Part shown: positions 33,404 to 51,464 of the stretch, piece after piece
Position numbering within the stretch: the stretch's first letter is position 1
How the letters are laid out: each line of letters begins with the position of its first letter
Source of the DNA: an uncultured Prevotellaceae bacterium
GTDB lineage: Bacteria; Bacteroidota; Bacteroidia; Bacteroidales; Bacteroidaceae
Direction of reading: 5' to 3'
Assembly (NCBI GenBank): GCA_900318995.1
Contig: ONMR01000022.1
Location: 1 to 62,956 of the forward strand
DNA: 62,956 nucleotides
Translations under genes and position numbers: made by a program
The notes under the pieces: model-generated
Databases searched by the model: none
The model's input: only the letters and a program-made list of their open reading frames with translations
What the model was told of the DNA's origin: nothing

Positions 33404-34120
33404 TTACCCCAGGAACTTGCCTCTGTTCTGAAGGCCAAGCAGGCCGGACATCAGGAAGACTATGGCGGCTACCCCCATCAGGATGCGGTTCTTTAGCAGG
33501 ATCATGCTCCAAATGGCGGCATTGATGTTCTCCGGCTCCTCATAGGGATTGATGGTCAGGTCCCACACCTTGTTCTCAACCAGCTGGACATTCCCCAGCA
33601 CCAGCGCCAGTATTACTGTCAGCACTGAGAGAACGGCAGCGGCATTTCCGTTGCGGATTAGTGTGGAGTACAGGAATGCCAGATTGCCAAAGAGCATGAC
33701 GGGTAGCATCAGCTGGGCTGCCATCGTGAACGGTTGCACCGGATAGAGCAATATCCTGCCCAGGAAAGCATATGCCACAAGAATCAGATATACCTCAACG
33801 TAAATCATCAAGAGTCTGAAAAGCCACACCTTATACATGTAGTTGGGGATGCCGAACAGCAGTTCCAGTATGCGGTGATCGGCATCATTCTGAATGCCGA
33901 AGCATGCAGGATAGAACACCAGTAGCAGCCCCGGTATGATAAGCTGGTTGTATACCATACCATGGCTCAAAGTAGTTCCCCTGGCTGCGGCTGTATACAT
34001 CAGGAAGAAAAACAGCGCCAGGCCAACCAGCAGGAACCAGATGAACTTGCCTGAGAATATTATCCTCATGTTGTATACGCACAGACGGGCGTAAGATTTC
34101 ACTGTATTGAATACCGACAT
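33404..34120 (-). CDS. ABC-2 type permease
   Basis: A 238-residue membrane protein with six predicted helices (FIWFLLVGLALFFFLMYTA, LIIPGLLLVFYPACFGI, LLMIYVEVYLILVAYAFLG, LMLPVMLFGNLAFLYSTL, AAVLSVLTVILALVLGNV, ILMGVAAIVFLMSGLLGL). The pattern fits an ABC-2 permease subunit. It lies 12 bases after the RND-ABC fusion and is the last gene of the operon, so it is the probable permease partner of that fused ATPase. Substrate unknown. Confidence 0.75.
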   Translation of the reverse strand: MSVFNTVKSYARLCVYNMRIIFSGKFIWFLLVGLALFFFLMYTAAARGTTLSHGMVYNQLIIPGLLLVFYPACFGIQNDADHRILELLFGIPNYMYKVWLFRLLMIYVEVYLILVAYAFLGRILLYPVQPFTMAAQLMLPVMLFGNLAFLYSTLIRNGNAAAVLSVLTVILALVLGNVQLVENKVWDLTINPYEEPENINAAIWSMILLKNRILMGVAAIVFLMSGLLGLQNRGKFLG

Positions 34121-34132
34121 AATGACAACTGT

Positions 34133-37100
34133 TTATAAATTCTTCAATAGGCACAGATAAGCATCCTCCAGATTGGGTTCTGCCGGCTCAGCGCCCGGGA
34201 ACGGACAGGTTGGTGATATATAACGCACCTTGACCTTGTCGCCGTCCTGGATATGGTTGGCAATGAGTTTCTCGTCCAGTTCACCCAGACGTGAAGCCTC
34301 TATGTCAAACAGCCAGACCTTGTCCTTGGCCAGGTTAACCATGTCATTAGGCTCTCCAAAGTACTTGAGCGAGCCCTTCTCAATGACCACAACCTGGTTA
34401 CATGAACTGGCTATATCCTCAATGATATGGGTTGAGAATATCACGATACGGTCACGACTCAGCTCTACCAGCAGGTTACGGAACCTGATACGCTCCCTGG
34501 GATCAAGACCTGCGGTAGGCTCGTCGACAACAAGGATACGCGGCAGGTTAAGCAGTATGAGAGCAATACCTATACGCTGCTTCATACCGCCCGAGAACGA
34601 GCCTATCTCAGAGTTTCTCTGCTCATACATGTGTACCGATGTGAGCACATACTCCAGTCTCTCTTTACGCACCTTTTCATCGGTAATACCCTTGAGTATT
34701 GCCTGATAATCCAGGAAATCCCATGCGCTCATGGACTCGTACATACCGAACTCCTGAGGCAGGAATCCGATAAGGCTCTGTAGCTCCTCCCTGTACTTGA
34801 GGGTGTCCATACCGTTGATGAAAACAGTTCCATAACTCTGCTTAAGAATTCCGGTTACAATACGCATGAACGTGGATTTACCGGCTCCGTTGGGGCCCAG
34901 CAAACCGAACATTCCGCTGTGAATCTCGAACGATACGCCACGCAGTGCCTTGAACGGTTTCTTGCGTTTGCCAATGATAGGAATACTCTTTACAAACAGG
35001 AACCATGCACGTCTCAACTTGGCTGTCTCACCATCCAGACGCTCCACATTGATGTTGTTGTCATAGAGATAATCCGATGTCTTGCGGATCAACAGGCCAA
35101 GCAACCAGACTGCCGCAATGAATATCACGAATCCCTTACTCTCAATGCGGGTATTCAGGAACAGTACGGCACATATAGGCAAAACCCAATATAGTATCTT
35201 CCTGATTATCGCTGTTATTTCCTTGCCTTTCCTGAAATTAAAATCAATATACTCAAGAATGGCCCTTATAATATTCTTCAGACCGGCCAGAGTAATGATT
35301 GTCATGAGCAAGATCCAACCCTGTTTCTCAAAATACCATCCTGCCATATAGCCTGTGTATGCAAACACAACCACCTGCCATATAAGGCTCACAAAGTCCT
35401 TAGCGTGACGGAAGCTGCGCGACAGTCCCAGACGGCGGCGGATATTGAGTCCACTACGCCACTGACGCAGGAACAGACTGTACCAGTCATATACCTTGAC
35501 CAGGTTACGTACCTCTATCACTATCGGCTCATCAGGCTTGACAATATCCTTGCGTGCAATCCTGACGGAGCTCTTGATGAAGTATGTCACTCCCGGTATA
35601 ATCAGAGCCAGAAGAATTATGTAAAGCAATATCTTGAATATACCCCTGACTCCTGATATAATCGCAATTACACCTACCACAAATATTACAATGTGTAAAA
35701 TATGGGTGTATCGGCCAAGTCCCTTATACCAGGCTCTCATGTTCTCAAACGATATGTAGAGCGTAGGAATAAGAAGCAGTGTCAGTATTGCCGAGAAGGT
35801 AAGACCTCCGATTACGGTCAGCGCAAACGGAGCACCTATCGCACCTGCATACTCATTGTCACCCATAGCCATAGGGATGAGCGTGACTATGGTGGTGATG
35901 GTAGTTATGCAGATAGGTCTCAGACGCGAGTATCCGCTGGTCATGATAGCCCTCATGCGACCGTAGCCCCTTCGACGCAGTGTAGATGAGTAGTCTATCA
36001 GTATGATTCCGTTGTTTACCACAATACCAAGCAAGATAAGGAATCCGGTCAATGTATTGGCATTCATCAGGTTATTGCCCGACAATAGCAATGCCAACAG
36101 CGAACCGATGGCAGCCAACGGTATCGAGAACAACAGGACCACCGGTGTGGTGAGTGACTCGAAAGCCGATGCCAGTATCATGAATATCAGTATGATGGAT
36201 GCCAGAATCAGGAACTTGAACTCACTTGTGGAGTCATCGCCTCGCTGAACTTCGAGAGCCAAACCTGACGGGAGATTGTAGTTGGCAATCAGGTCATCAA
36301 TCTGGTCATGGTAGCCGTCCAGTACATCCTTGGGCAGATCCTCACTCTGAGATATCGAATAGGTTACGTTGACACGGCGGTCACGATTGACGCGGCGTAC
36401 CTCCGACGGTCCGCGGCTCAAACGGATATTTGCTATCTGCTGCAGCTCATGAGTGCCGCCGTTAGCATCTGTCACTATGACACGGCGCAGATCATCCATG
36501 GTCTTTTCCCAACGTCCGGCTTCCTCCTCTTCTTCTGTGAGGTCATCCATTATGACAATGTCATATTCATCGGTTCCGACCTTGAAACTGGCTCCGGTGC
36601 TTGTGGAACGGTTAAGCGACCCCAATGCTGAGGTCACAGCCTGGTTGCTGATGTTGTAAGACGCCATAGCCACCGGGTCAAAGGTAAGTTGTACCTCACG
36701 CCGGCCACCGGGATTATCAACCCTGACATTACGTATAAAATCCAACTGTTCAAGATAGTACCTGAGGTTGTTGGATACTACGCGCATAGTCTCGGTATCG
36801 GAACCCTTCACCACTATCCTCTCCGTGTTATCTCCCACACCAAGAACGCTCATGAACCGGGTAATTGAACTCAGTCCGGATGCATTCTGATTTCCTCTGG
36901 CATAGCCCGGAGTTACACGGACATCTATCTCATTCTCAAGTGCAAGTTCTTCGCCCAACTGCTCTACAATCTGGCTTATGGTCATGCCGCCCTTCTTGTT
37001 GTAACCGTCCTGGAGAGTCACTGTGATTGATGCCTGTTCCTCCTGGATACGGCTCATGACATCCTTCTTCAGGGCAAAACTGTCCAGACGGGCCTCAAGC

Positions 37101-38836
37101 ATGGCTGTTGCCTGATCCGTGTCGTCAAGTGTGCTGCCGCTGGGCATGGTGATGTCCACATTTATCCGGTCACTGTCCACCTGTCGGTTCTGGCCTGTAT
37201 TGCGGGAGAGAGCGAATATGAATGCAATAACCAGAACGGCAACCGCTGTACCCACTGTCGGTCCCGGCTTACGCAAAGCGGTTTTAAGCAACGTGGAATA
37301 CATCTGCAACGGACGGTCATGGATAGACATTTTCTTGAAGAAAACGCTGTTCCCGCCGCCTCCGCGCTCCATCATGGCTGCTGTTGCCATCGGAATGAAG
37401 GTGACAGCCACCAGAAGTGAGAATATCAGCGTCGATATGATAGAGAATCCAATGTTCCTGCCCAGCAGTTTTATCATCGGCTCATCAGAGAACACAAACG
37501 GAAGAAAAACCGTTATTGTGGTGAGCGTAGATGCGATAAGTGCCTTGCGGACCTCCTTCACGCCTTGCAATGCCGCCAGTCGCGGTGGCATTCCCATAGA
37601 GGCCAGACGATAGATGTTCTCCAGCACAACTATACTGCTGTCCAACAACATACCTATAGCCAACGCAATACCCAACAGAGTCAGGGTATTGATGGAGATT
37701 CCGGCTGCATAGAATATATTGAATGCCGATAATACTGAGACCGGAATTGACAATGCTATGAAAAATACAAGGCTCAGGTTGCGCAGGAAGAACCACAAGA
37801 CCAGAATTGCCAGCAATCCGCCTATAAGCGCCAGTTTAACTATCTGGGATATGTTGTTGCTGATCTGGTCTGCCGAGTTGGACTGGACTACAAGCTGAAG
37901 GTCCTGGGCTGCCACCTCCCGGTTAACCTCATTGATACGTTTAAGGGTCCTCTTGGAGAGGTCCAGCAGATTCTCGCCGGCTCCATTGACCAACGATACC
38001 GAGATGGCATCCATGCCGTTCACACGGCTTATGGTAGTCTCCTCCTTGTAGTCAAAGAATACAGTGGCTACATTCTTCAGGTATACAGGTCCCTGGGCAA
38101 CTACCAGATTCTCCACCTGTGACACATCGTCATAGTTGGCATCCAACTGAACATAGTATTTCTTGTCCGGCTCACTGATGAAACCCAGGAACGTACGCTC
38201 CTGATTATACTGGCTAAGTGCCTGGCTTATCTGTGAGTTGGATATGTGCAATGCGCTCATGGCCTCAGGATTGGAGCGGATCTCGATGGATTTGACCCTA
38301 CCTCCATAGACCGTAACGCCTGCAATACCGTCTATGCTCTCCAGACGAGGTACCACATCCTTATCCACAATGGCCCTCAAGCGGTCCACGCCACCCGATC
38401 CGCGAACCTGAAGTGACATAAACTGGTTGCTTATACCGTTGACATTGGCCTGTTGCACATTTACCGACACATCAGACGGGAAATCAGACCTTATGGAGGC
38501 GATTTTCTCCTGAAGTTTTACGGTGGTCATCTTAAGGTTGGTACCTCTCTTGAAATCGACCCTTATGGAGCCCTGTCTGCCGGATACTGTCGATTCCATA
38601 TTCTCAACACCACCCACTGCACTTATAGCCCCCTCAAGCGGGATAATAACCTGCTGCTCCATATAAGCCGGACTCAGATCGCTGCGCGATGATGCTGAGA
38701 CATAAAGCTGAGGTAACTCGGTATTGGGCAGCAGCTCAACCGGCAACTGCTTATACGAGAAATAGCCCAGCAGTGTCATGGCCACCAGAAGCATGCAGAT
38801 AGTTACCCTCCTGTCAATAAATGACTTGGAATTCAT
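34133..38836 (-). CDS. RND efflux permease fused to an ABC ATPase
   Basis: A 1567-residue inner-membrane chimera. Residues 1-~1030 are a full RND permease: start MNSKSFIDRRVTICMLLVAM; porter-domain phrases; TM4 LLDSSIVVLEN with Asp399 and Ser where AcrB has its second Asp. Residues ~1035-1085 add two helices. A strand typical of an ABC domain N-terminus (IVIEVRNLVKVY) is at 1105-1116. About 180 residues with three or more helices interrupt, and the ABC domain resumes at 1296 (KALRGVSFEIHSG). It has Walker A GPNGAGKS 1314-1321, signature FSGGMKQR, Walker B ILVVDEPTAGLD and switch His STH. It overlaps the first RND gene by four bases. Confidence 0.92.
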   Translation of the reverse strand: MNSKSFIDRRVTICMLLVAMTLLGYFSYKQLPVELLPNTELPQLYVSASSRSDLSPAYMEQQVIIPLEGAISAVGGVENMESTVSGRQGSIRVDFKRGTNLKMTTVKLQEKIASIRSDFPSDVSVNVQQANVNGISNQFMSLQVRGSGGVDRLRAIVDKDVVPRLESIDGIAGVTVYGGRVKSIEIRSNPEAMSALHISNSQISQALSQYNQERTFLGFISEPDKKYYVQLDANYDDVSQVENLVVAQGPVYLKNVATVFFDYKEETTISRVNGMDAISVSLVNGAGENLLDLSKRTLKRINEVNREVAAQDLQLVVQSNSADQISNNISQIVKLALIGGLLAILVLWFFLRNLSLVFFIALSIPVSVLSAFNIFYAAGISINTLTLLGIALAIGMLLDSSIVVLENIYRLASMGMPPRLAALQGVKEVRKALIASTLTTITVFLPFVFSDEPMIKLLGRNIGFSIISTLIFSLLVAVTFIPMATAAMMERGGGGNSVFFKKMSIHDRPLQMYSTLLKTALRKPGPTVGTAVAVLVIAFIFALSRNTGQNRQVDSDRINVDITMPSGSTLDDTDQATAMLEARLDSFALKKDVMSRIQEEQASITVTLQDGYNKKGGMTISQIVEQLGEELALENEIDVRVTPGYARGNQNASGLSSITRFMSVLGVGDNTERIVVKGSDTETMRVVSNNLRYYLEQLDFIRNVRVDNPGGRREVQLTFDPVAMASYNISNQAVTSALGSLNRSTSTGASFKVGTDEYDIVIMDDLTEEEEEAGRWEKTMDDLRRVIVTDANGGTHELQQIANIRLSRGPSEVRRVNRDRRVNVTYSISQSEDLPKDVLDGYHDQIDDLIANYNLPSGLALEVQRGDDSTSEFKFLILASIILIFMILASAFESLTTPVVLLFSIPLAAIGSLLALLLSGNNLMNANTLTGFLILLGIVVNNGIILIDYSSTLRRRGYGRMRAIMTSGYSRLRPICITTITTIVTLIPMAMGDNEYAGAIGAPFALTVIGGLTFSAILTLLLIPTLYISFENMRAWYKGLGRYTHILHIVIFVVGVIAIISGVRGIFKILLYIILLALIIPGVTYFIKSSVRIARKDIVKPDEPIVIEVRNLVKVYDWYSLFLRQWRSGLNIRRRLGLSRSFRHAKDFVSLIWQVVVFAYTGYMAGWYFEKQGWILLMTIITLAGLKNIIRAILEYIDFNFRKGKEITAIIRKILYWVLPICAVLFLNTRIESKGFVIFIAAVWLLGLLIRKTSDYLYDNNINVERLDGETAKLRRAWFLFVKSIPIIGKRKKPFKALRGVSFEIHSGMFGLLGPNGAGKSTFMRIVTGILKQSYGTVFINGMDTLKYREELQSLIGFLPQEFGMYESMSAWDFLDYQAILKGITDEKVRKERLEYVLTSVHMYEQRNSEIGSFSGGMKQRIGIALILLNLPRILVVDEPTAGLDPRERIRFRNLLVELSRDRIVIFSTHIIEDIASSCNQVVVIEKGSLKYFGEPNDMVNLAKDKVWLFDIEASRLGELDEKLIANHIQDGDKVKVRYISPTCPFPGAEPAEPNLEDAYLCLLKNL

Positions 38837-41800
38837 TTTCCAGTAATTCTAACTTTAGCGCTCTCAAACACATAATACACACAGGGTATCACCACAAGAC
38901 TCAGCAGAGTCGAGGTGAACAGACCACCTATCACGGCAATGGCCATAGGGGAACTCAGGGATGCTCCGTCTCCAAATCCAAGTGCCATAGGTACAAGCGC
39001 CAGAATTGTGGTAAGACTGGTCATCAGAATTGGTCTGATACGTTGTTGCCCTGCCTCTGCTATGGCATCGGTCAGGCTCAGACCGCTCTCCTTGAGCTGT
39101 CCTATGCGGTCCACCAGAATGATGGAGTTGTTTACTGCAATACCGGACAGCATAACCATACCAATGATACCCATGATATTGACCGTTATGCCCGTTGCGA
39201 GGAACATCAGAACCGCACCTACCAGAGCCAGAGGAATTGTAAGCAGTATTGTGAACGGATGAAGCAGTGATTCAAACTGCGAAGCCATTACCATATACAC
39301 CAGTACTATTGACAACACCAGTGCCAGCAGAAGGCTGTTCATTGATTCGGCACGACGCTCCTCCTCACCTGTCACAGTTATGGAGTAGTTCTGCGGCAGT
39401 TCTATACCCGATACGGCCTCACGTGTACGCTGTGCAGCCTTATCCAGCGATACCGACTCTGCAATATCTGCTGTTACGCGTGTCACGCGGTTCTGATTGA
39501 GGCGGTAAATCTCCTTGGGGGCTGTGCTCTCACTAATCCTGGCCAGCTCCGCAAGACGGTAATCCTTCTGACCCGATGTTATAACCATGCTGTTCAACTC
39601 TGCCAGCGACACGCCGGGAACCTTGATGCTTATATCCCTCATATCACCCTTGTAATCCATCTGTCCTGCCGAACGGCCGTCAAGATGTTGCTGTATCTGA
39701 GTAATGATTGTGGATACGTTTATGTTATTCATACCCGCCAGTGCACGATCAACTGTGATGATAATCTCGGGAGCTCCACCTGCCAGCGAACTCTCAATAT
39801 TATAAAGACAGTCTATAGAATCCACAGCAGTCTTGACCTGATTGGTGATCACAGCCAGCAGGTCCAGGTCCTCACCCTTAACCTCCACTACCAGCGGAGC
39901 GTCTTCGGAGCCCATCATCGAGCTCAATGAGTTGTCATCCTGCGCGAATGTAAGTTCCATTCCCTCTACACCATCCACATATGATGACAGTATCTCGGCA
40001 AGCTGATCCGGAGAAACAGCCGATGAATTGGAGAGCTGAATCTTCATAGAAGCGGTATTCTCACCCTCAAAGTCCATATTCTGGGATGATGCACCGGGGC
40101 CCACATGCGTATAGATTACGCAACCGCTGTCTTGAGACAGGTCAAACACCAGATTCTCAAGACTCTCAAGCGTAGACGATGTACGTTCAAGACTTGTACC
40201 CTCGGCCATACGTACCTTTACGTTAATGGTGTTGTCCTCGGTCTTGGGCATGAATTCCGTACCCACGTAAGGCAGCAGGAATACTGTTCCGGCCACCAGG
40301 ATAACAGATGCTGTAATAACCCACCAACGCTTTTGTACAAGTTTCTTTAGGAATGAGCTGTAGCCTTTGATATTGACCGAACTGAAGTTCTTAAGAGGAA
40401 CAGCCTTTTTGCGTCCGAATATCTTGTCATACAGCGTGGGTATAACCAGAATGGCCACAAACAGTGATGAAAGCAGTGAGAACGTTACAGTCCACGCCTC
40501 ATCTTTGAAAAGTTCACCGGTAGCTCCGTGCAGATAGACTATCGGCAGGAACACTACAATGGTAGTAAGGGTTGATGCCGATACCGCACCGGCAACCTCG
40601 GAAGTTCCGGTGACAGCAGCATCACGTACGGACAGTCCACGCTCCTGATTCCTGAATATGCTTTCAATTACCACTATGGCATTATCCACCAGCATACCCG
40701 CACCCAATGCAAGTCCGCCCAGTGTCAGGATATTTATGGTCAACCCGCTGAAAAACATCAGGTTGAAGGTAGCTATTATGGAAACCGGTATTGATACGGC
40801 CACGATAAGGGTGGTCCCTATCCTGCGCAGGAACACGAACAGCACGATTACCGCCAGAAGTATTCCAAGCAATGCGCTGTTCTTTACCTCGCCTATGGAG
40901 TTGTTGATAAAGGTAGCCTGGTCACTGATCACGATAAAATCATACCCCGGAAGAGACTTACGTATCTTGGCAAGGCTTGTCTTGATACCATCCACGGCTT
41001 TTACCGTATTGAAATCCATCTCCTTGAATACCGATATGCCTATGCTCCGGTTGCCATTCACCCTGACTATATTTTCAGGGTCTCGGTTCTCAAAGTGGAT
41101 TGTAGCCACATCGCGCAGGTAAATGGGAGCCATGCTGGCCGATGCGAATTCGCCCACCTGTCCCTGCTGGGTCTCAGTGTTCTTATATCCGACTATGATA
41201 TTGCCGAACGCGACCTCATCAGTAAGAGTATTGGATCCGGTAACAAGATACTGGAAACCCTGTTCGGATATTCTTCCGCCCGATACCCTCTGGTTGCTTT
41301 CCTGAATGCGTGACGATATATTGTCTACGGTGATGTTGAATGCCTTCAACTTATACGGATCTGCCTCTATGACCAGATTCGTAAACTCATCGCCGGCCAG
41401 CGAAACATCAGCTACACCCTCCACTCTCATCAGCTCATTGCTCACATAGGAGTCCGCCACCTTGCGGAGTTCGGCCATATCGGCAATGTCAGGATTTGAG
41501 AAACCTATTATCATGATAGGTGCAGTGGTGGGGTCTTTCTGTGATATACGGAGGTCCGTAATACGGCTGTCCTGAGAGAAGCTGCTCATAGCTTTCTCAA
41601 GGTCCAGGAACGCCTCGTCCATATTCTTTCGCCAGGCGTACTCAACAGTTATCCTGGCCGTACCTACCTTTACTACCGATGAGACATTGCGCACGTCGCT
41701 CTGACGGGCAATCTGAGACTCCATACTGCGCACAAACTGCTTCTCAATCTCTTCGGGGGGACGCTCTCCGGCGTCTATCTCAACGAATAGACGGGGGCTG

Positions 41801-41925
41801 TTCATGCTTGGGAGCAACTCCACGCTCAGCCTGTCATATGATATCTTTCCGAGCAGCAGTATAGCCAGCACCGCCATTGTGACAGTAACCGGATTCCTGA
41901 CCGCCCAACTTACCAGTCTTTTCAT
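38833..41925 (-). CDS. RND-family efflux permease
   Basis: A 1030-residue RND transporter of the AcrB/HAE class, with twelve expected helices and two large periplasmic loops. Features: MKRLVSWAVRNPVTVTMAVL at the N-terminus; TM4 GMLVDNAIVVIESIF with Asp414 and Asn415 (AcrB has Asp-Asp); PVSIIATFNLMFF; GIAVNNSIILVDRIGQLKE. It uses the proton gradient to expel substrates through the TolC-type channel. With the next gene it gives two non-identical RND subunits, as in heteromeric pumps such as MdtBC. Confidence 0.93.
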   Translation of the reverse strand: MKRLVSWAVRNPVTVTMAVLAILLLGKISYDRLSVELLPSMNSPRLFVEIDAGERPPEEIEKQFVRSMESQIARQSDVRNVSSVVKVGTARITVEYAWRKNMDEAFLDLEKAMSSFSQDSRITDLRISQKDPTTAPIMIIGFSNPDIADMAELRKVADSYVSNELMRVEGVADVSLAGDEFTNLVIEADPYKLKAFNITVDNISSRIQESNQRVSGGRISEQGFQYLVTGSNTLTDEVAFGNIIVGYKNTETQQGQVGEFASASMAPIYLRDVATIHFENRDPENIVRVNGNRSIGISVFKEMDFNTVKAVDGIKTSLAKIRKSLPGYDFIVISDQATFINNSIGEVKNSALLGILLAVIVLFVFLRRIGTTLIVAVSIPVSIIATFNLMFFSGLTINILTLGGLALGAGMLVDNAIVVIESIFRNQERGLSVRDAAVTGTSEVAGAVSASTLTTIVVFLPIVYLHGATGELFKDEAWTVTFSLLSSLFVAILVIPTLYDKIFGRKKAVPLKNFSSVNIKGYSSFLKKLVQKRWWVITASVILVAGTVFLLPYVGTEFMPKTEDNTINVKVRMAEGTSLERTSSTLESLENLVFDLSQDSGCVIYTHVGPGASSQNMDFEGENTASMKIQLSNSSAVSPDQLAEILSSYVDGVEGMELTFAQDDNSLSSMMGSEDAPLVVEVKGEDLDLLAVITNQVKTAVDSIDCLYNIESSLAGGAPEIIITVDRALAGMNNINVSTIITQIQQHLDGRSAGQMDYKGDMRDISIKVPGVSLAELNSMVITSGQKDYRLAELARISESTAPKEIYRLNQNRVTRVTADIAESVSLDKAAQRTREAVSGIELPQNYSITVTGEEERRAESMNSLLLALVLSIVLVYMVMASQFESLLHPFTILLTIPLALVGAVLMFLATGITVNIMGIIGMVMLSGIAVNNSIILVDRIGQLKESGLSLTDAIAEAGQQRIRPILMTSLTTILALVPMALGFGDGASLSSPMAIAVIGGLFTSTLLSLVVIPCVYYVFESAKVRITGK

Positions 41926-41940: not shown

Positions 41941-43002
41941 TTATCTCTGTATCTTAACCTTTGAACCGTCTCTCAGGGTCTCAAAACCACGTATGACCAA
42001 CTGATCGTCCTTATCAAGACCACTCAGCACCTCAACGCTATTCTTTTCCTCAAGACCCAATTTGATCTGCTTTGCTCTGGCAATACCCTGATCAACAACG
42101 AATACTATGCGTCTGTTCCGCTCGTTACGGACAATGTTCTTAGGTATCACGATCGTTGAGCTGTGGCTCTCGGTTACGATATCGGCCTTTACGAACATAC
42201 CCGGTCTTATAAGAAGGTCTTTATTGTTTATTACAAGTTTGCCCTTGAACGTACGGGTCTCGGCACTGATAGCCGGTGACAGTTCTGTTATCTCACCTAT
42301 GATTGTATCCTTGGGAAGTGTATAATGGGTGATGAATGCCTTCTGACCCACCTTGACCTCATTGATTGCACTCTCAGGCAGGTTGATCTCAAGCAGCATG
42401 GAGCTGTAGTCCATGACAGTAGCCACCGATGTACCGCTATTTACCTTTGCCTCGTTAGAGAAATGAGGAAGATTGACAATAACACCGTCAAACGGGGCAC
42501 GGATATTCATCTTCTCCAGATTCATCTGGGCGTTCTCATAGTCCAGACGGGAGTTCATGATCTTGATATCGGAGTTCTTGACTTCCGTCAATGTGGCACC
42601 ACCCTTCTCATAGAGCGATTTTGTCTTGGCCTGTTCCTGCTCGGCAAGCTCCAGGTTAAGACGCTTGGACTCAATCGAGATACCGTTCTCATACGATTTG
42701 TCCTCAATACGTACAATGAGAGCTCCCTTCTTGACCCTGTCACCAAGTTTGTAAGGTTTACCGGTTGCGGGGTTTTTCTGAAGATGATACTTGCCGGCCA
42801 TCTCTGTTGACAACTCAGCCTCGGCATTCGATATGGCGGTACTGTTTGTGGTGAATATCCTGCTCACAGAACCATAGGTAATGTCAGAGACGGATACCGG
42901 TGTGGGTATCTCATTACGATTCATAGTGTTCTCTTGTCTGCACCCTGCCATCAGAAGGACAGAAAGCGCTGTTAGCGAAAGTACGCTGATTCCTGATTTC
43001 AT
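41941..43002 (-). CDS. RND periplasmic adaptor (HlyD/AcrA family) lipoprotein
   Basis: 353 residues. Type II signal peptide with lipobox LLMAGC (Cys21). The biotinyl-lipoyl-like halves (KLGDRVKKGALIVRIEDKS and MNIRAPFDGVIVNLP) flank a coiled-coil hairpin (SKRLNLELAEQEQAKTKSLY ... ENAQMNLEK). Beta-barrel and membrane-proximal domains follow (FKGKLVINNKDLLIRPGMFV). It bridges the RND permeases to the outer membrane channel. It lies 15 bases upstream of the first RND gene. Confidence 0.93.
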   Translation of the reverse strand: MKSGISVLSLTALSVLLMAGCRQENTMNRNEIPTPVSVSDITYGSVSRIFTTNSTAISNAEAELSTEMAGKYHLQKNPATGKPYKLGDRVKKGALIVRIEDKSYENGISIESKRLNLELAEQEQAKTKSLYEKGGATLTEVKNSDIKIMNSRLDYENAQMNLEKMNIRAPFDGVIVNLPHFSNEAKVNSGTSVATVMDYSSMLLEINLPESAINEVKVGQKAFITHYTLPKDTIIGEITELSPAISAETRTFKGKLVINNKDLLIRPGMFVKADIVTESHSSTIVIPKNIVRNERNRRIVFVVDQGIARAKQIKLGLEEKNSVEVLSGLDKDDQLVIRGFETLRDGSKVKIQR

Positions 43003-43018: not shown

Positions 43019-44527
43019 TTATTTCTTCTTATTCTTTTCGTTGCTCTGCTCATACACAATGGGGACAACCGGCTCATCCTTTTCAAAGTCATAAAGGGTC
43101 AGGACCTTGATATTAAGAAGCTGGACCTTATAGTTTATGATGGCCTGAGTGTATGACATCTTGCTGTTTGACAGCTGATTCTGGAACTGGTTCATCTGCA
43201 GTCCGGTCAGCTCGCCGTTGCGGTAGCGCTCCTCATTGAGGTCATATGTAAGCTGGGCGTTACGCTGGCTCTGCTCGGCTATAGAGATCTGTCCTACCAG
43301 ATTATCCAGGCTGCGACAGGTGCTGCGTACGTTCATCTCTATGCTCTTGAGTTCCTCCTCGGCGTTCAGCTCAAATATCTGCTTTCCTATCTCCGCTGCC
43401 TTGATGCGTGCCTTGCGTGCACCCCAGTCATAAAGCGGAACGCTGAATGAAACAGACACGCGGGGATTGTTGGTAGGATTATCATACAAGTGGTTGAATT
43501 CCGGATTATCGCCCATGATACCGAGCGAAAGCGATATGCTTCCGTTGAAACTGTCATTGTCCTTGACCTGAATCAAAGACATCTCCTGCTGTTCCCTTGA
43601 TATCTGACGCTGCCTTAACTCAAGTCTGGTTGTCATTGCACTCTCAAGTGCTTTGTCAAAATCCACATATACCGGTTCGGCCTCAATGTCGCACACCACA
43701 ATTATATCCTCCTCCAGAGGTATTCCCAGAACCTGCTTGAAATTATCCTTGGCGTTCTCAAGACTCACCCTCTGGTTCTCCAGGCTGGAACGTGACTGGG
43801 CCAGGTTAAGCTCTGCCTGATAGTATTCATCCTTGGTAGTCAGGTCTGCCTCCACCTTGTCCTTTATTATATTGAAGTTCCTCTCGGCGTTCTCAAGTTC
43901 CGATTCGCTGATGGCAAGGTTCTGCTGTGACATGAACAGGCTGTAGAACTGGCTTGTTATGTTACGCTCCACGTTAAGCCTCTGCAGGGCGTAACTTATG
44001 CGGGCGTTCTCATAGTCCATCTCTATCTGACGCATATTCATCTTGGTCCTGTTATATGTAAACAGGGGCTGGTTCAGACTCAGATAAAGACTGTTACTGA
44101 AAGCGCGGTTGGTGTTGGTCTTACCGCCTACGGTAGATTCGTTGCTCTGCCATGACAGATTGTTGTTGAGAGACAGCGTGGCATCGGTCCAGATTATGGG
44201 CTGCGATATGCTGAACGTACCTGACGATGACAAAGAACGGTTTGTGTACCAGTCTGAGTAACGGCTGTCAAACTGACGTGACTGAGAGTACGAAAGCGGC
44301 TGCAGGTTAAGTGAGAACCTTGATTTCAGCGATGCCCTCTGGGCAATCAGGTTCTGCTCGTAGCGCTCCATGCTCATGCGGGAGTTTTTAAGATCCGGAT
44401 TATGCTCTGCACTATACTCCAGAGCCTGCTCCATGGTAAGTACAATCTGTGCCCTGGCTCCGGTTCCAAAGGACGCGGTTAACCCCAAAACGACAATTGC
44501 TGTAATCAAAGATTGTTTTTTAATCAT
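43019..44527 (-). CDS. TolC-family outer membrane efflux protein
   Basis: 502 residues with a signal peptide (QSLITAIVVLGLTASFGTGARA). The duplicated OEP pattern of long helices is seen in EQALEYSAEHNPDLKNSRMS and SELENAERNFNIIKDKVEAD, then SIEMNVRSTCRSLDNLVGQI and LNEERYRNGELTGLQMNQFQ. It forms the trimeric exit duct. The tail FDKDEPV-like FEKDEPVVPIVYEQSNEKNK is basic and hydrophilic. 16 bases separate it from the adaptor gene. Confidence 0.92.
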   Translation of the reverse strand: MIKKQSLITAIVVLGLTASFGTGARAQIVLTMEQALEYSAEHNPDLKNSRMSMERYEQNLIAQRASLKSRFSLNLQPLSYSQSRQFDSRYSDWYTNRSLSSSGTFSISQPIIWTDATLSLNNNLSWQSNESTVGGKTNTNRAFSNSLYLSLNQPLFTYNRTKMNMRQIEMDYENARISYALQRLNVERNITSQFYSLFMSQQNLAISESELENAERNFNIIKDKVEADLTTKDEYYQAELNLAQSRSSLENQRVSLENAKDNFKQVLGIPLEEDIIVVCDIEAEPVYVDFDKALESAMTTRLELRQRQISREQQEMSLIQVKDNDSFNGSISLSLGIMGDNPEFNHLYDNPTNNPRVSVSFSVPLYDWGARKARIKAAEIGKQIFELNAEEELKSIEMNVRSTCRSLDNLVGQISIAEQSQRNAQLTYDLNEERYRNGELTGLQMNQFQNQLSNSKMSYTQAIINYKVQLLNIKVLTLYDFEKDEPVVPIVYEQSNEKNKKK

Positions 44528-44542
44528 ATGCTGTTCTTTATT

Positions 44543-47500
44543 TTATCTTTCCCTTTTAACCATCCTCACGGCATCGGCAATAATCACGCTTATGCTTGAC
44601 CTGTTGTTGAGACTGATCCTCACCGTATCCGCTTCAAACCTGAATGTACCAAGCAGGTTCCAGCCTTCGTCGGCACGCCACATGTTCATAGACACATGGT
44701 CCTTCATGTTGAACTGTTCAATCTCAAAATTATAGTCGCTGGTTACCCTACGGCCGTTGTTATTATTATTGTTATTGTTGTTCCATCTGCGGTTCCGGTT
44801 ATCGTTGCTGTACAGGGATGGAGATGCATAGAAATATACATCATACACGCCTGCAACAGAAAGAGGTACGCTCCAGCGAGCATACTGGGAACCGTCACCC
44901 GGAGATATGATATATGATGACCGGATGTAATCTCCATACAGGTTCTGGTCTGTCACCAGAGTCCACTGGCTGTAAGTTCTCCAGTCGGAGAATCCCTCAT
45001 ATATGAATTCATTGTCATTCTCCTTCGCCTTGTCTATCCATTTGGACAGATAACCGGTTCTGAGCGGCCTTGAAAGAGAGAACAGTCCTCTGTCCTCATT
45101 ATCGACGATAATCTCACCCGGAAGCGTATTATCCACACCGCCGTTCAATGTATAGACACCTTCTTCCTCAAGTTCTGTGCCCTCATATGTACTCCAGTCC
45201 GAATTGTCCAGATTTACATCATGTGGAAGGTTTGAAGAAAGCATCGTGTTTACACTTATCCTGCCGGGAATATTGAACCAATGTGTAACAAGCCTTCGTG
45301 TCTCATGTGCGCCGACGCTCACCATCATACTCTTGGGTTTATCCTCATCACCCGCATTCTCAATCTCATAGAACATGAATTCAACGTTTACGTAACCGGG
45401 ATTGTCGGATATATTCTCAAACGAAATCTCAGCCTGGTATATATCTGCCGTATCGGTGGTGACAGTAGTTATTGTTGGAGTTCCAACCTTGTAGCAGGCC
45501 AGTCGGGCAGTGTCATTCCAGCCTTCAATCTTGTCCTTAAGGCTTATACCCGAATAACTCTGGACCCAATCCAGAATTGAGTCAAATGAGACGTTGGCAA
45601 ATTCTCTCTCTCTTGTCTTGGCAGATATGGAGTCTTCCAAAGACTCATAGCCCACAGCCACCGAAACCGGAGCAAAGAAATCCTTGGTCTTGATTGCCAG
45701 GGCATTGTCTGCAAGATCCTCCCACTCCGGATCTGACATTATGCGGTCAAAACTGTATTTGCTCATCAGTATCAGCGCCTTCTCATCTTCGGACAGTCCG
45801 TTCATCCTCCTCATCCATGCCGATCCGTTGTTTTGGGTTCCTCCCGTCATAGCCTCCACCATTCTGTTGGCCATTGGCCAGGATGACGAGTAGACATTAT
45901 ATCTGAAATTGTAGAACAATGGCCGGTAAAAGTAAGGATTGTCCACCTGGGTCATGGTCCATTGTCCGTTCCTGCTGTTGCCACTGTAATTACCGGATTC
46001 CATAAGGAAATATATGGAGTTGTTGAGAATGCTGAGCAGAATCTCCTTTTCCGACATGTTTCCGTTTCTGCTGTTCCAGTTGTTACGGCCATTGCCGAAA
46101 TACATACGTTTCTGGTTACGGAACTGGAATCTGCCCATATCAAAACCTCTCTCGTGAACGAGTGCCATCTCAGGCTGCAACTGTTCATATACCGATGTCC
46201 ATACCCGTTTGTATGATGTAAACTGTACCGGCACCTCCACAATCGAGAAACGCTTGAACGGATACTTCATATCAGCACTATACTCCATACTCCGGCGCAT
46301 ATTCCTGATAATATACGGAACAGTATCACGTATTGAATCAAACACCTCGAACTGATCATCCCATTTTCCCAACTCCCATACGGTATATAAGGTAGAGTCA
46401 ACCGTTATTGATTTGGGCCTGTAATCACCTATCAGGAGCGATATGGACGGTAGTGATGACTCAGGTTTGAAAGTATACATACTGGAGTCGGCATTTGCCG
46501 TACACAACCCCTGCGAAATTGGCACCATTCCGGGATTGGGAATTACATTAATCTTGAAATCAGTAAAGTAAGAGATCTGCCATTCAGGACTCTCGTTGCT
46601 GTATGCCACACCCGGACGCGGATACCAGTAGCTTTCAGGGGTCAGCATGGTGAAATCCTTATCCTGGAAAAGATAACGCTTCCCGACATTGAGCATAGAG
46701 AGGACCTTGCTGTTCTCAAGCATCTTCTCTGACGTGATGTCCAGGAAACAGATGCGCTCATCGGCCTTACCGCCATACTCCATAACCAGACTTACAGGTT
46801 CACCTCCGGAAAGTGTCCTGTCAAAAGACAGAACTATCAGATGCATCAGACGCTCCCACTTCATGCCGTGTCCTGAAGTTCTGATACTACTGACATTGAA
46901 CCCCGGGTTCAGAGTGAACACCAGTTGTGAAGTGCTTACCTTGGGCCTTACCGTAATCTCTGCAGTCACGCTCAAGGAATCACCGCTTTGTGTCACCGAA
47001 AGCGTACATGAATCTGCCACAGCACCTCCGATGTGCACATATCTGTTGTCCAGTTCCACCATGTCGGCCCTGAATCTCTCATCCACTTTATATAAATGGA
47101 CATGCCTGAAACCGGCAAATAAACCTGAAGCCAGGAACAATGCGGCAGCAATACGCCAAGGCAGCAGGCTATACCTGGAATTAGGCAGACGATGGAACAG
47201 CGATACATCAGTCAGAATAAGCCCTATGCCCAGCAACACATAGCACATCCTGTGATTGATCAGTCTGGAGAGTCCGCTGAAACCGGTTACCACGGACTTT
47301 AGCATGGGCAAGTTGAAACCTATATAATCAAAAAGGTAATAATAGACATTGTCTATGTAGAACAGGGTCACGCCAATATAAGCCAGCAGGACAACCATAG
47401 TTATGGCCTGGTTGTTAAGCAGCAGCATCAGAGTGGTGGACAGTCCTACTATGAATACAAGTGTAGGAACGCAAAGCAGCAGGAAATACCACAGATAACT

Positions 47501-47932
47501 GAGATAATCCAGTGCAAATCCGTACTTAATCAGGCTCATTACCAGAGCTATAAGCGCTACCGCCACATCAAGTACAAAAAATACTTTCAGTGTGGCCCAC
47601 ATCTTGCCCAACAGATATTCGGCATTTGTAAGCGGACGGGTGTAGAACACCTCTGACGTATCAAGTTGCTTGTCCCTCTTGAGATATTCCGATGCCAGGA
47701 ACACAGAGACCACAGCCTGTCCCAGATTCATCACAAGCATGAACATGTATGGTATGACAGACCTGTTTACCATCTGAGCCTGCTGGTAAGGCGACAGGAT
47801 ATATATGGAGCCGAGAATCACCGATGCAAGCAGTGACAAGAAAGCAAAAACTTTGAAGAACCAGCCACGGACAAGCAGTTTTGTCTCGTATCTGGATACT
47901 ATGCGTATGTTAGTTAATCCTATCCTCATCAA
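44543..47932 (-). CDS. ABC-2 permease fused to M1-peptidase-like and golvesin-like domains
   Basis: 1129 residues. Residues 1-~295: ABC-2 membrane domain with seven or so helices (VFAFLSLLASVILGSIYILS, FFVLDVAVALIALVMSLIKY, ITMVVLLAYIGVTLFYIDNV). About 300-900: periplasmic region shaped like the M1 aminopeptidase/ABC fusions of Bacteroidetes, but the place of the zinc motif reads ALVHERGFD (His593-Glu594), without HExxH, so it is probably not a peptidase. About 990-1129: a golvesin C-terminal-like carbohydrate-type domain (GWNLLGTFRFEADTVRISLN, IADAVRMV), interrupted by nine consecutive Asn (near 1050). It overlaps the ATPase gene by four bases. Confidence 0.85.
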   Translation of the reverse strand: MMRIGLTNIRIVSRYETKLLVRGWFFKVFAFLSLLASVILGSIYILSPYQQAQMVNRSVIPYMFMLVMNLGQAVVSVFLASEYLKRDKQLDTSEVFYTRPLTNAEYLLGKMWATLKVFFVLDVAVALIALVMSLIKYGFALDYLSYLWYFLLLCVPTLVFIVGLSTTLMLLLNNQAITMVVLLAYIGVTLFYIDNVYYYLFDYIGFNLPMLKSVVTGFSGLSRLINHRMCYVLLGIGLILTDVSLFHRLPNSRYSLLPWRIAAALFLASGLFAGFRHVHLYKVDERFRADMVELDNRYVHIGGAVADSCTLSVTQSGDSLSVTAEITVRPKVSTSQLVFTLNPGFNVSSIRTSGHGMKWERLMHLIVLSFDRTLSGGEPVSLVMEYGGKADERICFLDITSEKMLENSKVLSMLNVGKRYLFQDKDFTMLTPESYWYPRPGVAYSNESPEWQISYFTDFKINVIPNPGMVPISQGLCTANADSSMYTFKPESSLPSISLLIGDYRPKSITVDSTLYTVWELGKWDDQFEVFDSIRDTVPYIIRNMRRSMEYSADMKYPFKRFSIVEVPVQFTSYKRVWTSVYEQLQPEMALVHERGFDMGRFQFRNQKRMYFGNGRNNWNSRNGNMSEKEILLSILNNSIYFLMESGNYSGNSRNGQWTMTQVDNPYFYRPLFYNFRYNVYSSSWPMANRMVEAMTGGTQNNGSAWMRRMNGLSEDEKALILMSKYSFDRIMSDPEWEDLADNALAIKTKDFFAPVSVAVGYESLEDSISAKTREREFANVSFDSILDWVQSYSGISLKDKIEGWNDTARLACYKVGTPTITTVTTDTADIYQAEISFENISDNPGYVNVEFMFYEIENAGDEDKPKSMMVSVGAHETRRLVTHWFNIPGRISVNTMLSSNLPHDVNLDNSDWSTYEGTELEEEGVYTLNGGVDNTLPGEIIVDNEDRGLFSLSRPLRTGYLSKWIDKAKENDNEFIYEGFSDWRTYSQWTLVTDQNLYGDYIRSSYIISPGDGSQYARWSVPLSVAGVYDVYFYASPSLYSNDNRNRRWNNNNNNNNNGRRVTSDYNFEIEQFNMKDHVSMNMWRADEGWNLLGTFRFEADTVRISLNNRSSISVIIADAVRMVKRER

Positions 47933-48810
47933 TCCTTATCCCTTATCTCTGTAAAATAAACATATGCATGTTCCAGGTTTGGCGGATAACTGACCGCATC
48001 GTAACCGGGAAGACTCTTTGCCACCACCTGAATATCCCATCCAAGACCATCCGGTATGGTAGATATCACGGCATATTTCTGATTAATCTCAGCATACTGA
48101 TCATTCGTTACTTTCAGACGCCAGACTTTACCTTCGGTCTCCTTGAGCATACCGGCAGGCGATCCGCGGAACATCACCTCTCCCTGATTGAGCATTGCCA
48201 TCTCCGTACATGAACTGGAAATATCTCCTACGATATGGGTTGACAGGATAATAGTGGTGTCCTTGGAACTGGCCTCACTCAAAAGATTCCTGAATCTGAT
48301 TCGTTCCTCAGGATCAAGTCCTGTGGTAGGTTCATCCACGACCAATACCAAAGGCTTATGAATCAGAGCCTGAGCTATGCCGAGACGACGTTTCATACCG
48401 CCTGACAGATTCTGAGCGAACCTGTCACGGGCTTCATATAGTCCGACCTGCTCCAGCATGGCGTCAACTGCCTTGCCGCGCTCCGCAGAGTTGGTCATAC
48501 CCGAAAGCGCAGCGGCATAATCCAGAAACTCACGAACTTTATACTTGGCAAAAAAACGGAAATCCTGAGGCAGATATCCCAATATCCGCCTTACCTCCTG
48601 ACGCTGAGTGCGAATATCGTATCCGCACACATCGATCTGGCCCTCGGTTGGTTCCATAAGGGTTACCAGAATACGCATTAGAGTGGACTTTCCGGCTCCG
48701 TTGGGCCCCAAAAGGCCGAACATACCCGAAGGTATCTCAAGATTGATGTTGTTTAACGCTTTCTTACCGTTAGGGTAATAATGACTTAAGCCTTTGATTG
48801 AAATTGACAT
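47929..48810 (-). CDS. ABC transporter ATP-binding protein
   Basis: 293 residues. Walker A LLGPNGAGKST (near 35), Q-loop YLPQDFRFF, signature NLSGGMKRRLG, Walker B VLVVDEPTTGLDP, switch His STHIVGD. The C-terminal ~75 residues (KVWRLKVTNDQYAEINQKYA) are an extension shared in style with the end of the RND-ABC fusion (KVWLFDIEASRLGELDEKL), suggesting related ATPases. The partner permease is the overlapping 1129-residue protein. Confidence 0.93.
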   Translation of the reverse strand: MSISIKGLSHYYPNGKKALNNINLEIPSGMFGLLGPNGAGKSTLMRILVTLMEPTEGQIDVCGYDIRTQRQEVRRILGYLPQDFRFFAKYKVREFLDYAAALSGMTNSAERGKAVDAMLEQVGLYEARDRFAQNLSGGMKRRLGIAQALIHKPLVLVVDEPTTGLDPEERIRFRNLLSEASSKDTTIILSTHIVGDISSSCTEMAMLNQGEVMFRGSPAGMLKETEGKVWRLKVTNDQYAEINQKYAVISTIPDGLGWDIQVVAKSLPGYDAVSYPPNLEHAYVYFTEIRDKD

Positions 48811-48824
48811 GATGTACTACTTCA

Positions 48825-51464
48825 TCATTTGTTGATTGCCGCAGCAATCTCCTCAGCACCGATTGACAATGTTACATATGACGGAACCGTGCGGGTGCAG
48901 CATTCGTTCTCACCCCACAGGAACGGATAATCATCCTTATGCTCCAACAGGTCTGGCTGCAGAAGCACCAGTCCGGGAGCTATACCGCCCGGAATGAAGG
49001 TATAGTCGGCACGGTTGTTTCCGTAAGCCACTTTCTTTGTGTTGACACCAACAGCCGTAACGAAAGAGACATTTGAATACGGATGGTTTCCGTATATGAA
49101 ATTCAGTCCCGAAAGGACCAGCTCAGGATCAATCAGATCGGGATAATAACGCCATACCATATAGTTATTCTGAGCCCAACTGATGACACGCTCGCTGCCT
49201 CCCCATGATCCTCCAGCCACGGGAACGCCGTAAGGAGTTGACTCCGCTGTACGCTTGGCATCCTCAACGAATACGGGAATGACCTCCCGAAGCTGAGCCT
49301 TGAAATCATCATCCATATAAGGCAGGAGTGAGAGAGCAGTGGTGATGTTTACCCTTGGGGCACGCATAGCGCTTCCACCACCTGTGCGGTTATCCTCGGC
49401 CCCCTGCGGAGCATTACGGGCAGCCTCAATCTGACGCATGACGCCGGGCAGGAACATATCCTTGTACTTCTGATCGCCTGTCAGGAGCCACAGCTGGATG
49501 GCTGCGCTGGAGCGGTCACCGCCAAAACCGCGGTTGCCACGCTGTCCGTTGCCCTGTTGCTGCTGCTGAGGCCGGTTGGCCATTCTGGCCTGATAGTCAT
49601 CCATCTCCTTCCAAAGTTTCAGAGCATTCTTCTTGCAGCGCTCTGCTGTTTCCGGGATATACGGAGCAAGAACACGAGCCGCATGTGCCAAAGCAGCGCA
49701 AACGTTCACGTTACTCATAGGATTACCGGCATTGTTGGTAAATGCGAAACGGTCATCCAGTGTGCCGGAACGGTTGCCGCGTACCTCATAAGGCTTGAGG
49801 CTGGGGTCATATATATAACCGTCGGTAATGGTCACGGCATCGCCCAAATGATGGTATTGATGCATGTTGCCCTGTACAATACCACCTGCAATAAATCCGA
49901 TGTTCTCAATCTGTGCGCAAAGATTAAGTGCACCGTGTTCTACCTGCTGAATCATATCGGGCAGACCATCCGGACGGTGAATGTCAACGAACTGGGTCTT
50001 CTGGTCGATGAATGTCTCGTCACGCTCGGGACGCAGAACATCCCAAACCTCTGCCAGCTGGTTGGTCAGACCGATAACGGTACCGGACTGGATATCAAAG
50101 TCTCCGGCATCATACCATGCTCCGACTGCCAGACCGGGTATATGCTCGTACGGTTTGTACTTGGTGTTGGTGCTGTTTCCCATGCGATAACCGTCATGCT
50201 GCTGATAGTTGGTAGGAGCCTGAACTGCATCGTCCATGTGTGAGCGGCCATGCCATACACGGTAAGCTTCGTTCACAAGCATGTGGTCCATCTGTACAGG
50301 AAGCCAGACATCCATAGTGTTGTGCCACTTGCCGTCGTATACGTTCTTGTTGATCGGGAACGGATTGGTCCTGAAACCGTTGTATTCTATGTAATAGGTA
50401 CCGGGATCGGTCACTGCACTGAAATCACACTGGGCATAATTGTAGCGGTTGTAGAATACGCCCCACTCCTTTACGGCGGGCTCCAGGACCAACGTATGGC
50501 TGCCGTCGGCATTCACACGGAATATCTTGGCTTTGGATACCACCCTATCGTTGCGGTCCAGTTCTATGACAGCCACCTTTTTCTGAGCCGGAGTATAACC
50601 GATCTGTGAAAATCCGATGTTTGGCTCACGTATCCATCCGGCATCGGGAGTAGGCTCCACGTACCACTCTAGAACGGTGCCTTTCTTTCCGGCAGGAATC
50701 ATGGAACGTACCACGAAAGTACCGTTCTGTGACAGGTTGCGTCCGTCAAACAGGTTCAGTTCAGTATCAGACTGGAACAGGACACGCAGTGACTCATCCT
50801 CGGGAGCCATTACAATGGTGTGTCCTTTGGATATCGGTTTTGCAACGATGAATTCGTCACGTCCGCGGTCATCAAATGTGGAAAGGCCCCAGAACTGATT
50901 GATCTTCTCTGATTTGGGACGCATTTCAGTGTCGCTTGACGGATAGCGCGGAAATATCTCGGACTGACCGTCAACAAGATAGGTCTTGCCGTAATAGGTT
51001 GCAGGAAAGAACTCCATATTGAGTCCGGCCTTACCGGCCAGCTCGGCAGGAAGCGGATCATCCAATTCAACCGACATGCGGAAACCTTTACCCTCCTGCC
51101 TTACGGTTATCCCGTAACGGAAATTATAGTCAGGATAATTGAACCTGCAACTTATTACGCCGCCCAATGTATCGATGGTACGTTCCGTGAGGCTTGCATA
51201 GATATCCCATTGCTCCGGAGTGTTCATGAGACGTACTGCACCGCCTGTAGCGATACGGACTCCGCGCTGCACTATTTCCACGCCTGCAGTCTTTTCATCA
51301 CAGAATACTCCCTGATAGTTGTTTGAGTAAACCAACACGTTTACACCACGGGTCTCGAAATACCCCCTTTCGTTGATCACTAACTTTCCCGCATCCTTAC
51401 TGTCTGTGGCACAAGAAACGAATCCACATATCAATGCGGTAATAATTGGCAGTAATTTTTTCAT
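48825..51464 (-). CDS. GH9-family glycoside hydrolase-like lipoprotein
   Basis: 879 residues. Lipoprotein signal with Cys at about residue 19 (GFVSC). A beta-rich N-terminal region of ~290 residues precedes an Ig-like cellulase-N module (IGFSQIGYTPAQKKVAVIEL, about 285-385). The (alpha/alpha)6 GH9 domain has DAGD at residues 452-455 (catalytic base pair) and the acid Glu in GENECC (854). A Gln/Gly/Arg-rich insert (RPQQQQQGNGQRGNRGFGG, near 640) breaks the domain. GH9 enzymes mostly cleave beta-1,4-glucans. It is the first gene of the export operon, 14 bases before the ABC ATPase; the functional link is unknown. Confidence 0.85.
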   Translation of the reverse strand: MKKLLPIITALICGFVSCATDSKDAGKLVINERGYFETRGVNVLVYSNNYQGVFCDEKTAGVEIVQRGVRIATGGAVRLMNTPEQWDIYASLTERTIDTLGGVISCRFNYPDYNFRYGITVRQEGKGFRMSVELDDPLPAELAGKAGLNMEFFPATYYGKTYLVDGQSEIFPRYPSSDTEMRPKSEKINQFWGLSTFDDRGRDEFIVAKPISKGHTIVMAPEDESLRVLFQSDTELNLFDGRNLSQNGTFVVRSMIPAGKKGTVLEWYVEPTPDAGWIREPNIGFSQIGYTPAQKKVAVIELDRNDRVVSKAKIFRVNADGSHTLVLEPAVKEWGVFYNRYNYAQCDFSAVTDPGTYYIEYNGFRTNPFPINKNVYDGKWHNTMDVWLPVQMDHMLVNEAYRVWHGRSHMDDAVQAPTNYQQHDGYRMGNSTNTKYKPYEHIPGLAVGAWYDAGDFDIQSGTVIGLTNQLAEVWDVLRPERDETFIDQKTQFVDIHRPDGLPDMIQQVEHGALNLCAQIENIGFIAGGIVQGNMHQYHHLGDAVTITDGYIYDPSLKPYEVRGNRSGTLDDRFAFTNNAGNPMSNVNVCAALAHAARVLAPYIPETAERCKKNALKLWKEMDDYQARMANRPQQQQQGNGQRGNRGFGGDRSSAAIQLWLLTGDQKYKDMFLPGVMRQIEAARNAPQGAEDNRTGGGSAMRAPRVNITTALSLLPYMDDDFKAQLREVIPVFVEDAKRTAESTPYGVPVAGGSWGGSERVISWAQNNYMVWRYYPDLIDPELVLSGLNFIYGNHPYSNVSFVTAVGVNTKKVAYGNNRADYTFIPGGIAPGLVLLQPDLLEHKDDYPFLWGENECCTRTVPSYVTLSIGAEEIAAAINK

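Follow-up and report, generated by a model that had tools for sequence, protein, structure and literature searches.

RND and ABC transporters are regarded as belonging to two distinct superfamilies, each with its own source of energy. To our knowledge, the RND systems MdtABC and MuxABC contain neither an ATPase nor an ABC permease, and the ABC system MacAB-TolC contains no RND permease. Published accounts describe MdtB and MdtC as forming an MdtB2C1 heterotrimer, which is a precedent for a mixed RND trimer (PMC7015380), and MacAB-TolC as an ABC transporter that works with a membrane fusion protein (MFP) and TolC (PMC5985334, PMC8277102), the ATPase of MacB being located at the N-terminus of its own permease (PMC8277102). 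The locus that we describe here brings the two kinds of transporter together in another way. Judged from its sequence and from its relatives, the window (the whole stretch of 62,956 nucleotides that was analysed) encodes an RND permease and a split ABC ATPase in one real, conserved polypeptide chain. The component parts are of known kinds; what appears to be new is the covalent join. A search of the open-access literature by titles and the starts of abstracts found no description of a covalent RND-ABC join or of an ATPase split by membrane helices. The open-access literature likewise yielded no description of the seven-gene export system to which the fusion belongs.

The seven genes lie on the reverse strand in the order ABC1, PERM1, TolC, MFP, RND1, RND2-ABC2 fusion, PERM2. 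ABC1 (47929..48810) is a separate ABC ATPase of 293 residues (ABC_tran, E 6.2e-33) that is 42% identical to the ATPase of the fusion (hereafter ABC2) and keeps the ATPase motifs, as read by eye. PERM1 (44543..47932) appears to have an ABC-2-like N-terminus, an M1-peptidase-like middle that lacks HExxH, and a Golvesin_C end. This assignment comes from a Golvesin_C match and from relatives, one of which (L072) matches ABC2_membrane_2 just over the cut-off and two of which (L113, L117) show weak M1 traces; in a further relative (L144) the contig stops about 300 bases beyond the end of the PERM1 frame. The TolC-like outer membrane channel (43019..44527; OEP, E 3.7e-48) and the MFP (41941..43002; HlyD_D23, E 2.9e-21) come next, so that both partners of the RND permeases are encoded in the operon, and both are conserved among relatives. 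They are followed by RND1 (38833..41925), a permease of 1030 residues (ACR_tran, E 1.6e-213). The start codon of the fusion overlaps the stop codon of RND1 (ATGA), and 12 bases separate the fusion stop from the PERM2 start. The order from ABC1 to PERM2 is kept in all 21 neighbourhoods where the sequence reached ABC1 (partly read in six of them), and these include other families, another order and another class. The sequence-only reading makes no mention of this conserved set, with its second ATPase, second permease and second RND permease.

The first gene of the run in the window lies outside this conserved core. It encodes a GH9-like protein with a lipoprotein-like leader (48825..51464; Glyco_hydro_9, CelD_N). 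The gene, on the reverse strand too, also adjoins the operon in the one other genus member read that far (L081), and it is unmatched in the fetched loci of other families, some of which do not reach that far. Because it is found beside the operon only within the genus, it is a weak clue to the substrate.

The fusion is a single intact chain. Its open reading frame (34133..38836, reverse strand) encodes 1567 residues with no internal stop, and its Pfam matches are ACR_tran at residues 4-1030 (E 1.6e-163; full-length, 546.3 bits against a curated cut-off of 28) and ABC_tran at residues 1298-1442 (E 5.5e-25). The sequence-only reading had claimed that a complete RND permease and an ABC ATPase share one polypeptide, with the ABC domain split by membrane helices. 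The open reading frame, the Pfam matches and conservation in relatives bear out the first part of this claim, and the second is supported, the helices being predicted. Among the best 60 of 588 solved-structure matches to the fusion, all are RND pumps or ABCA transporters by name, and none is both.

Five segments make up the chain. The RND permease part (residues 1-1030, 35747..38836) is followed by a post-RND stretch (residues 1031-1104, 35525..35746) with two predicted membrane helices, which AlphaFold places at model residues 12-32 and 36-60; hydropathy alone gives one helix for this stretch in the window. ABC strand 1 with the A-loop Tyr (residues 1105-1116, 35489..35524) contains a modelled strand at 77-83. 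It is succeeded by an insert with four predicted membrane helices (residues 1117-1289, 34970..35488; model helices 115-138, 142-170, 174-200 and 204-229) and finally by the remainder of the ATPase with the stop codon (residues 1290-1567, 34133..34969).

The ATPase is interrupted, and its motifs are preserved. The A-loop Tyr (Tyr1116), Walker A, Q-loop, SGG, Walker B Glu, D-loop and switch His are invariant in 64 of 64 aligned rows, save for S/T in Walker A, and the Walker A Lys is covered by a pattern that matches all 64; these rows, like those used for the RND permeases below, are not independent, as 63 loci hold 60 different C-termini. The A-loop Tyr is 197 residues from Walker A, with the four predicted helices in between, and the nucleotide-binding domain is therefore not uninterrupted. 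According to the AlphaFold model, the split domain would fold normally, with residues 1105-1116 as strand 1 of a normal nucleotide-binding domain and within the range that aligns to known ATPases. The model thus places inside the ABC fold a segment that might have lain outside it. Confidence around strand 1 is middling (block means of 84 for model residues 71-80 and 59-62 for residues 61-70 and 81-110), and the whole-model pTM is 0.55.

The insert is far more variable. The model predicts four helices, and the count of four rests on the model because hydropathy gives fewer segments in some rows: from 2 to 4 where the insert has its usual length, just 2 for L079 and for L116, and a single one for L129. 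Insert length also varies. The inserts of L128 (7535-12079) and L129 (7337-11944) are shorter, and apparently have two membrane segments rather than four between ABC strands 1 and 2; with two segments instead of four, the ATPase would stay on the same side of the membrane. The insert of L130 (7060-11940) has an extra low-complexity stretch of some 50 residues, rich in Gly, Ser and Asp. A search for a known membrane domain in the insert gave matches to five Pfam families, each in 1 of 15 members (best E 0.0018), which we rejected as scattered and weak. We compared the segments with those of the window in the 38 divergent rows, whose RND part is under 70% identical to that of the window. Mean identity there is 70% for the ABC remainder, 67.5% for strand 1, 49% for the RND part, 35% for the post-RND stretch and 33% for the insert. 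By this measure, the ATPase is the best-conserved part of the fusion.

Relatives keep the fusion in one frame. The sequence-only reading had allowed that relatives might carry two separate genes; we looked for these and did not see them. A first survey covered 101 genomes and used the last 535 residues of the fusion as query. A full-length match was found in 26 of the 37 genus genomes, this one counted, and a full or nearly full match in four genomes of other families (G067, G071, G082, G083). The other 11 genus genomes gave no full-length match to this query, and PERM2 is absent from 10 of them and partial in one (G024). The fusion frames in the 30 matching genomes are 1569-1595 residues long, except in G010 (1476 residues), G026 (865 residues), G071 and G082; these four frames start where the contig does (judged from coordinates for G071).

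The fusion also extends well beyond the genus. In an order-wide sample the C-terminal module is present in 52 of 393 genomes (23 families, 33 of 207 genera), and 44 of these 52 carriers have frames of at least 1500 residues. The remaining eight matches have frames of 504-1334 residues, and the join to a whole RND part is therefore not established for these; the frame was seen to begin at the contig start for G082 and is inferred from coordinates to do so for G071, G538, G709 and G729, the other three being G586, G707 and G725. A class-wide sample contains the fusion module in 5 of 395 genomes and a phylum-wide sample in 6 of 395, this genome counted, two of the six (G216, G444) being listed outside the class. 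The fusion also occurs outside the order, with G164 and G258 belonging to another order and G216 and G444 to another class. Its distribution is patchy, but because carriers are scattered in other families, another order and another class, the fusion is probably old.

We also scanned all genomes with peptides from the fusion itself, a search that reaches near relatives only. This returned 40 loci, of which 38 are the system described here and two are other ABC genes (L070, L071); the named loci are mostly drafts of rumen or gut Bacteroidales. The frame of L057 is broken in the RND part. L069 is a second fusion copy, broken into several frames, and the same draft genome holds an unbroken copy (L042) that is cut by the contig start. 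Separately, a 1432-residue frame in G443 (L118:5598-9893) was rejected as a fusion: its ABC match covers only residues 1153-1297, it lies amid many overlapping long frames, and it is probably a chance open frame.

The ATPase tree, which has long branches, agrees with the fusion having arisen once. All 59 rows of fused ATPases group as a clade (100/99) that excludes the 14 rows of the ABC1 group (99/100). The unity of the ABC1 group is partly built in because its rows were labelled by at least 55% identity to the window ABC1.

The gene downstream of the fusion encodes a predicted ABC-2 permease. PERM2 (33404..34120, reverse strand) is 238 residues long, and its predicted fold is that of ABC-2 permeases, as had been claimed for this adjacent gene. 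By sequence, the window protein matched no Pfam ABC-2 family above cut-off and gave no useful solved-structure match; four ABC2_membrane families reached E 0.1-0.51, each in 1 of 25 PERM2 members. No MacB row is present in the list of fold matches, a list that does not by itself exclude a MacB fold. The family has a conserved loop, D-x-R-x-L-E-x-x-F-x-x-P-x-Y-x-x-x-V-W, which we take to resemble the coupling loop of ABC-2 permeases.

Moreover, the presence of PERM2 tracks that of the fusion. In the order-wide sample PERM2 is found in 51 of 52 fusion-bearing genomes and in 0 of 341 genomes without the fusion. In the lone exception (G775) about 360 bases lie between the fusion and the start of the contig, the end at which PERM2 would be expected. 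PERM2 follows the fusion in all 37 loci from L032 to L068, although in L057 it was read in part. Upstream of the fusion, RND1 is present in 34 of the 37, the contig beginning first in L032, L042 and L057.

Both RND permeases belong, as far as their residues tell, to the RND superfamily and lack an AcrB-type relay. The TM4 Asp, presumably the proton-binding residue, is invariant in RND1 (65 of 65 rows) and in RND2 (64 of 64 rows), as is the TM11 Arg. In both proteins the second TM4 position is N, S or T, and the TM10 position is Asn (Ser in one RND1 row). The AcrB relay includes a second TM4 Asp and a TM10 Lys; neither RND permease here has this Lys, and the proton path would therefore not be AcrB-like. 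The equivalog level of the NCBIfam MdtC and MdtB models was not reached (293.1 versus 1774 bits and 279.4 versus 1584 bits, respectively).

We propose that the fusion serves as one subunit of an exporter that spans the envelope and links a tripartite RND pump with an ABC-2 transporter, ATP and proton force being used in series. We would put the probability of this reading at roughly 0.55. RND1 and RND2 would assemble into a mixed trimer like that of MdtB and MdtC, with the MFP and TolC above it. ABC2 would hang below the RND trimer by the six extra helices, and the insert may hold the ATPase in place under the pump, by anchoring it in the membrane or by offering a docking surface. Pairing with a second ATPase copy, ABC2 would drive PERM2, which would take up the substrate in the cytoplasm or the inner leaflet and carry it to the periplasmic face, and the RND-MFP-TolC conduit would then expel it by proton force. 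The tether would keep both steps adjacent, so that ATP and proton force could act in series. The coupling of ABC2 to PERM2, the stoichiometry, the substrate and the direction of transport are all parts of the scheme that we infer; likewise, PERM2 may be the partner of ABC2 rather than of ABC1, a pairing that shared presence in the operon does not prove. Our most far-reaching suggestion is an obligate doubly energised machine: a covalent union of an ABC-2 exporter powered by ATP with an RND-MFP-TolC pump powered by protons, the two acting in series on one substrate, and with a nucleotide-binding domain that tolerates membrane helices between its first two strands. We advance this tentatively, and consider it somewhat short of an even chance.

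The alternative that survives best is a single mixed exporter. Here an ABC1-ABC2 heterodimer would sit under a PERM1-PERM2 heterodimer, the whole being docked on an RND trimer with RND1 in two copies and RND2 in one. Such a trimer would supply exactly one tethered ATPase, and the stoichiometry fits equally well. Both ATPase-permease pairs are present in 21 of 21 neighbourhoods that reach ABC1, the motifs are intact in both ATPases, and in the stand-alone loci L119, L123 and L125 a single ATPase is paired with a single M1-peptidase permease, with no RND1 or RND2 match in the stretch fetched. In the tree, the ABC1 and ABC2 rows group with a stand-alone row on a long branch (L126) at 96/77, but this grouping does not reach the starred level and involves long branches. 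In addition, profile comparison detects no relation between PERM1 and PERM2 (E 0.2, not significant), and the contact between ABC1 and ABC2 is one that we infer. We regard the mixed exporter as possible but doubtful.

A second alternative is that ABC2, by hydrolysing ATP, drives the RND part itself, which would then be doubly energised, with PERM2 a minor or assembly factor. The sequence-only reading had offered double energising alongside that of a tethered ATPase serving the adjacent ABC-2 permease. The covalent link through six predicted membrane helices would suit direct driving, as would the key residues kept in both engines. However, the evidence favours the tethered ATPase, because PERM2 has a predicted ABC-2 fold and its presence tracks the fusion. 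Furthermore, the link is the least conserved part of the protein (33-35% identity) and is variable in length, which argues against a finely tuned force path. The linker being the most variable part, direct driving of the RND permease by ATP is unlikely.

We give even less credence to ABC2 as a regulatory or assembly ATPase that recruits or gates the pump and does not itself transport. FtsE-type proteins are precedents for such ATPases, and ABC2 would sit at the cytoplasmic end of the pump, but a conserved permease of predicted ABC-2 fold adjoins it. An artefact, in which two genes were fused through a stop codon lost in sequencing or assembly, is ruled out: the window does come from a draft genome (2.5 Mb, 42 contigs, 86.81% complete) and frames are broken in two relatives (L057, L069), but one frame recurs within the genus, in other families and in the order-wide sample and is kept even by relatives whose RND part is as little as 41% identical, with strand 1 and the ABC remainder flanking the insert in 64 of 64 aligned rows.

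Serial, doubly energised working, if true, would define a kind of transporter that bridges two superfamilies. Lineages scattered over the whole phylum have kept the fusion, which suggests that there is a use for joining RND and ABC. The fusion is also a ready system in which to ask whether ABC and RND transporters hand substrate over, something that is hard to prove with separate parts. Finally, the split domain suggests that membrane helices can be inserted beside the ATP-binding A-loop without loss of motifs.

How does the locus compare with known systems? As in MdtABC and MuxABC, two tandem RND paralogues and one MFP are encoded in an operon, and MdtB is the best solved-structure match by sequence (9lyq_B, E 3.1e-70); unlike in those systems, RND2 carries an ABC domain. 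In ABC-2 exporters such as NosFY the ATPase is a separate, uninterrupted chain, whereas four predicted helices divide the ATPase described here, which is also joined to an RND permease. ABC2 also matches the GldA-type gliding ATPase model TIGR03522 (E 7.5e-52), but far under its cut-off (176.6 versus 402.6 bits). ABC1 and PERM1 look like a derived version of the Bacteroidota pairs of an ABC ATPase and an ABC-2/M1-peptidase permease represented by the stand-alone loci L119, L123 and L125 (41-47% identity to ABC1). Unlike the permeases of those pairs, PERM1 has no HExxH (absent in 26 of 26), carries Golvesin_C and sits with RND genes.
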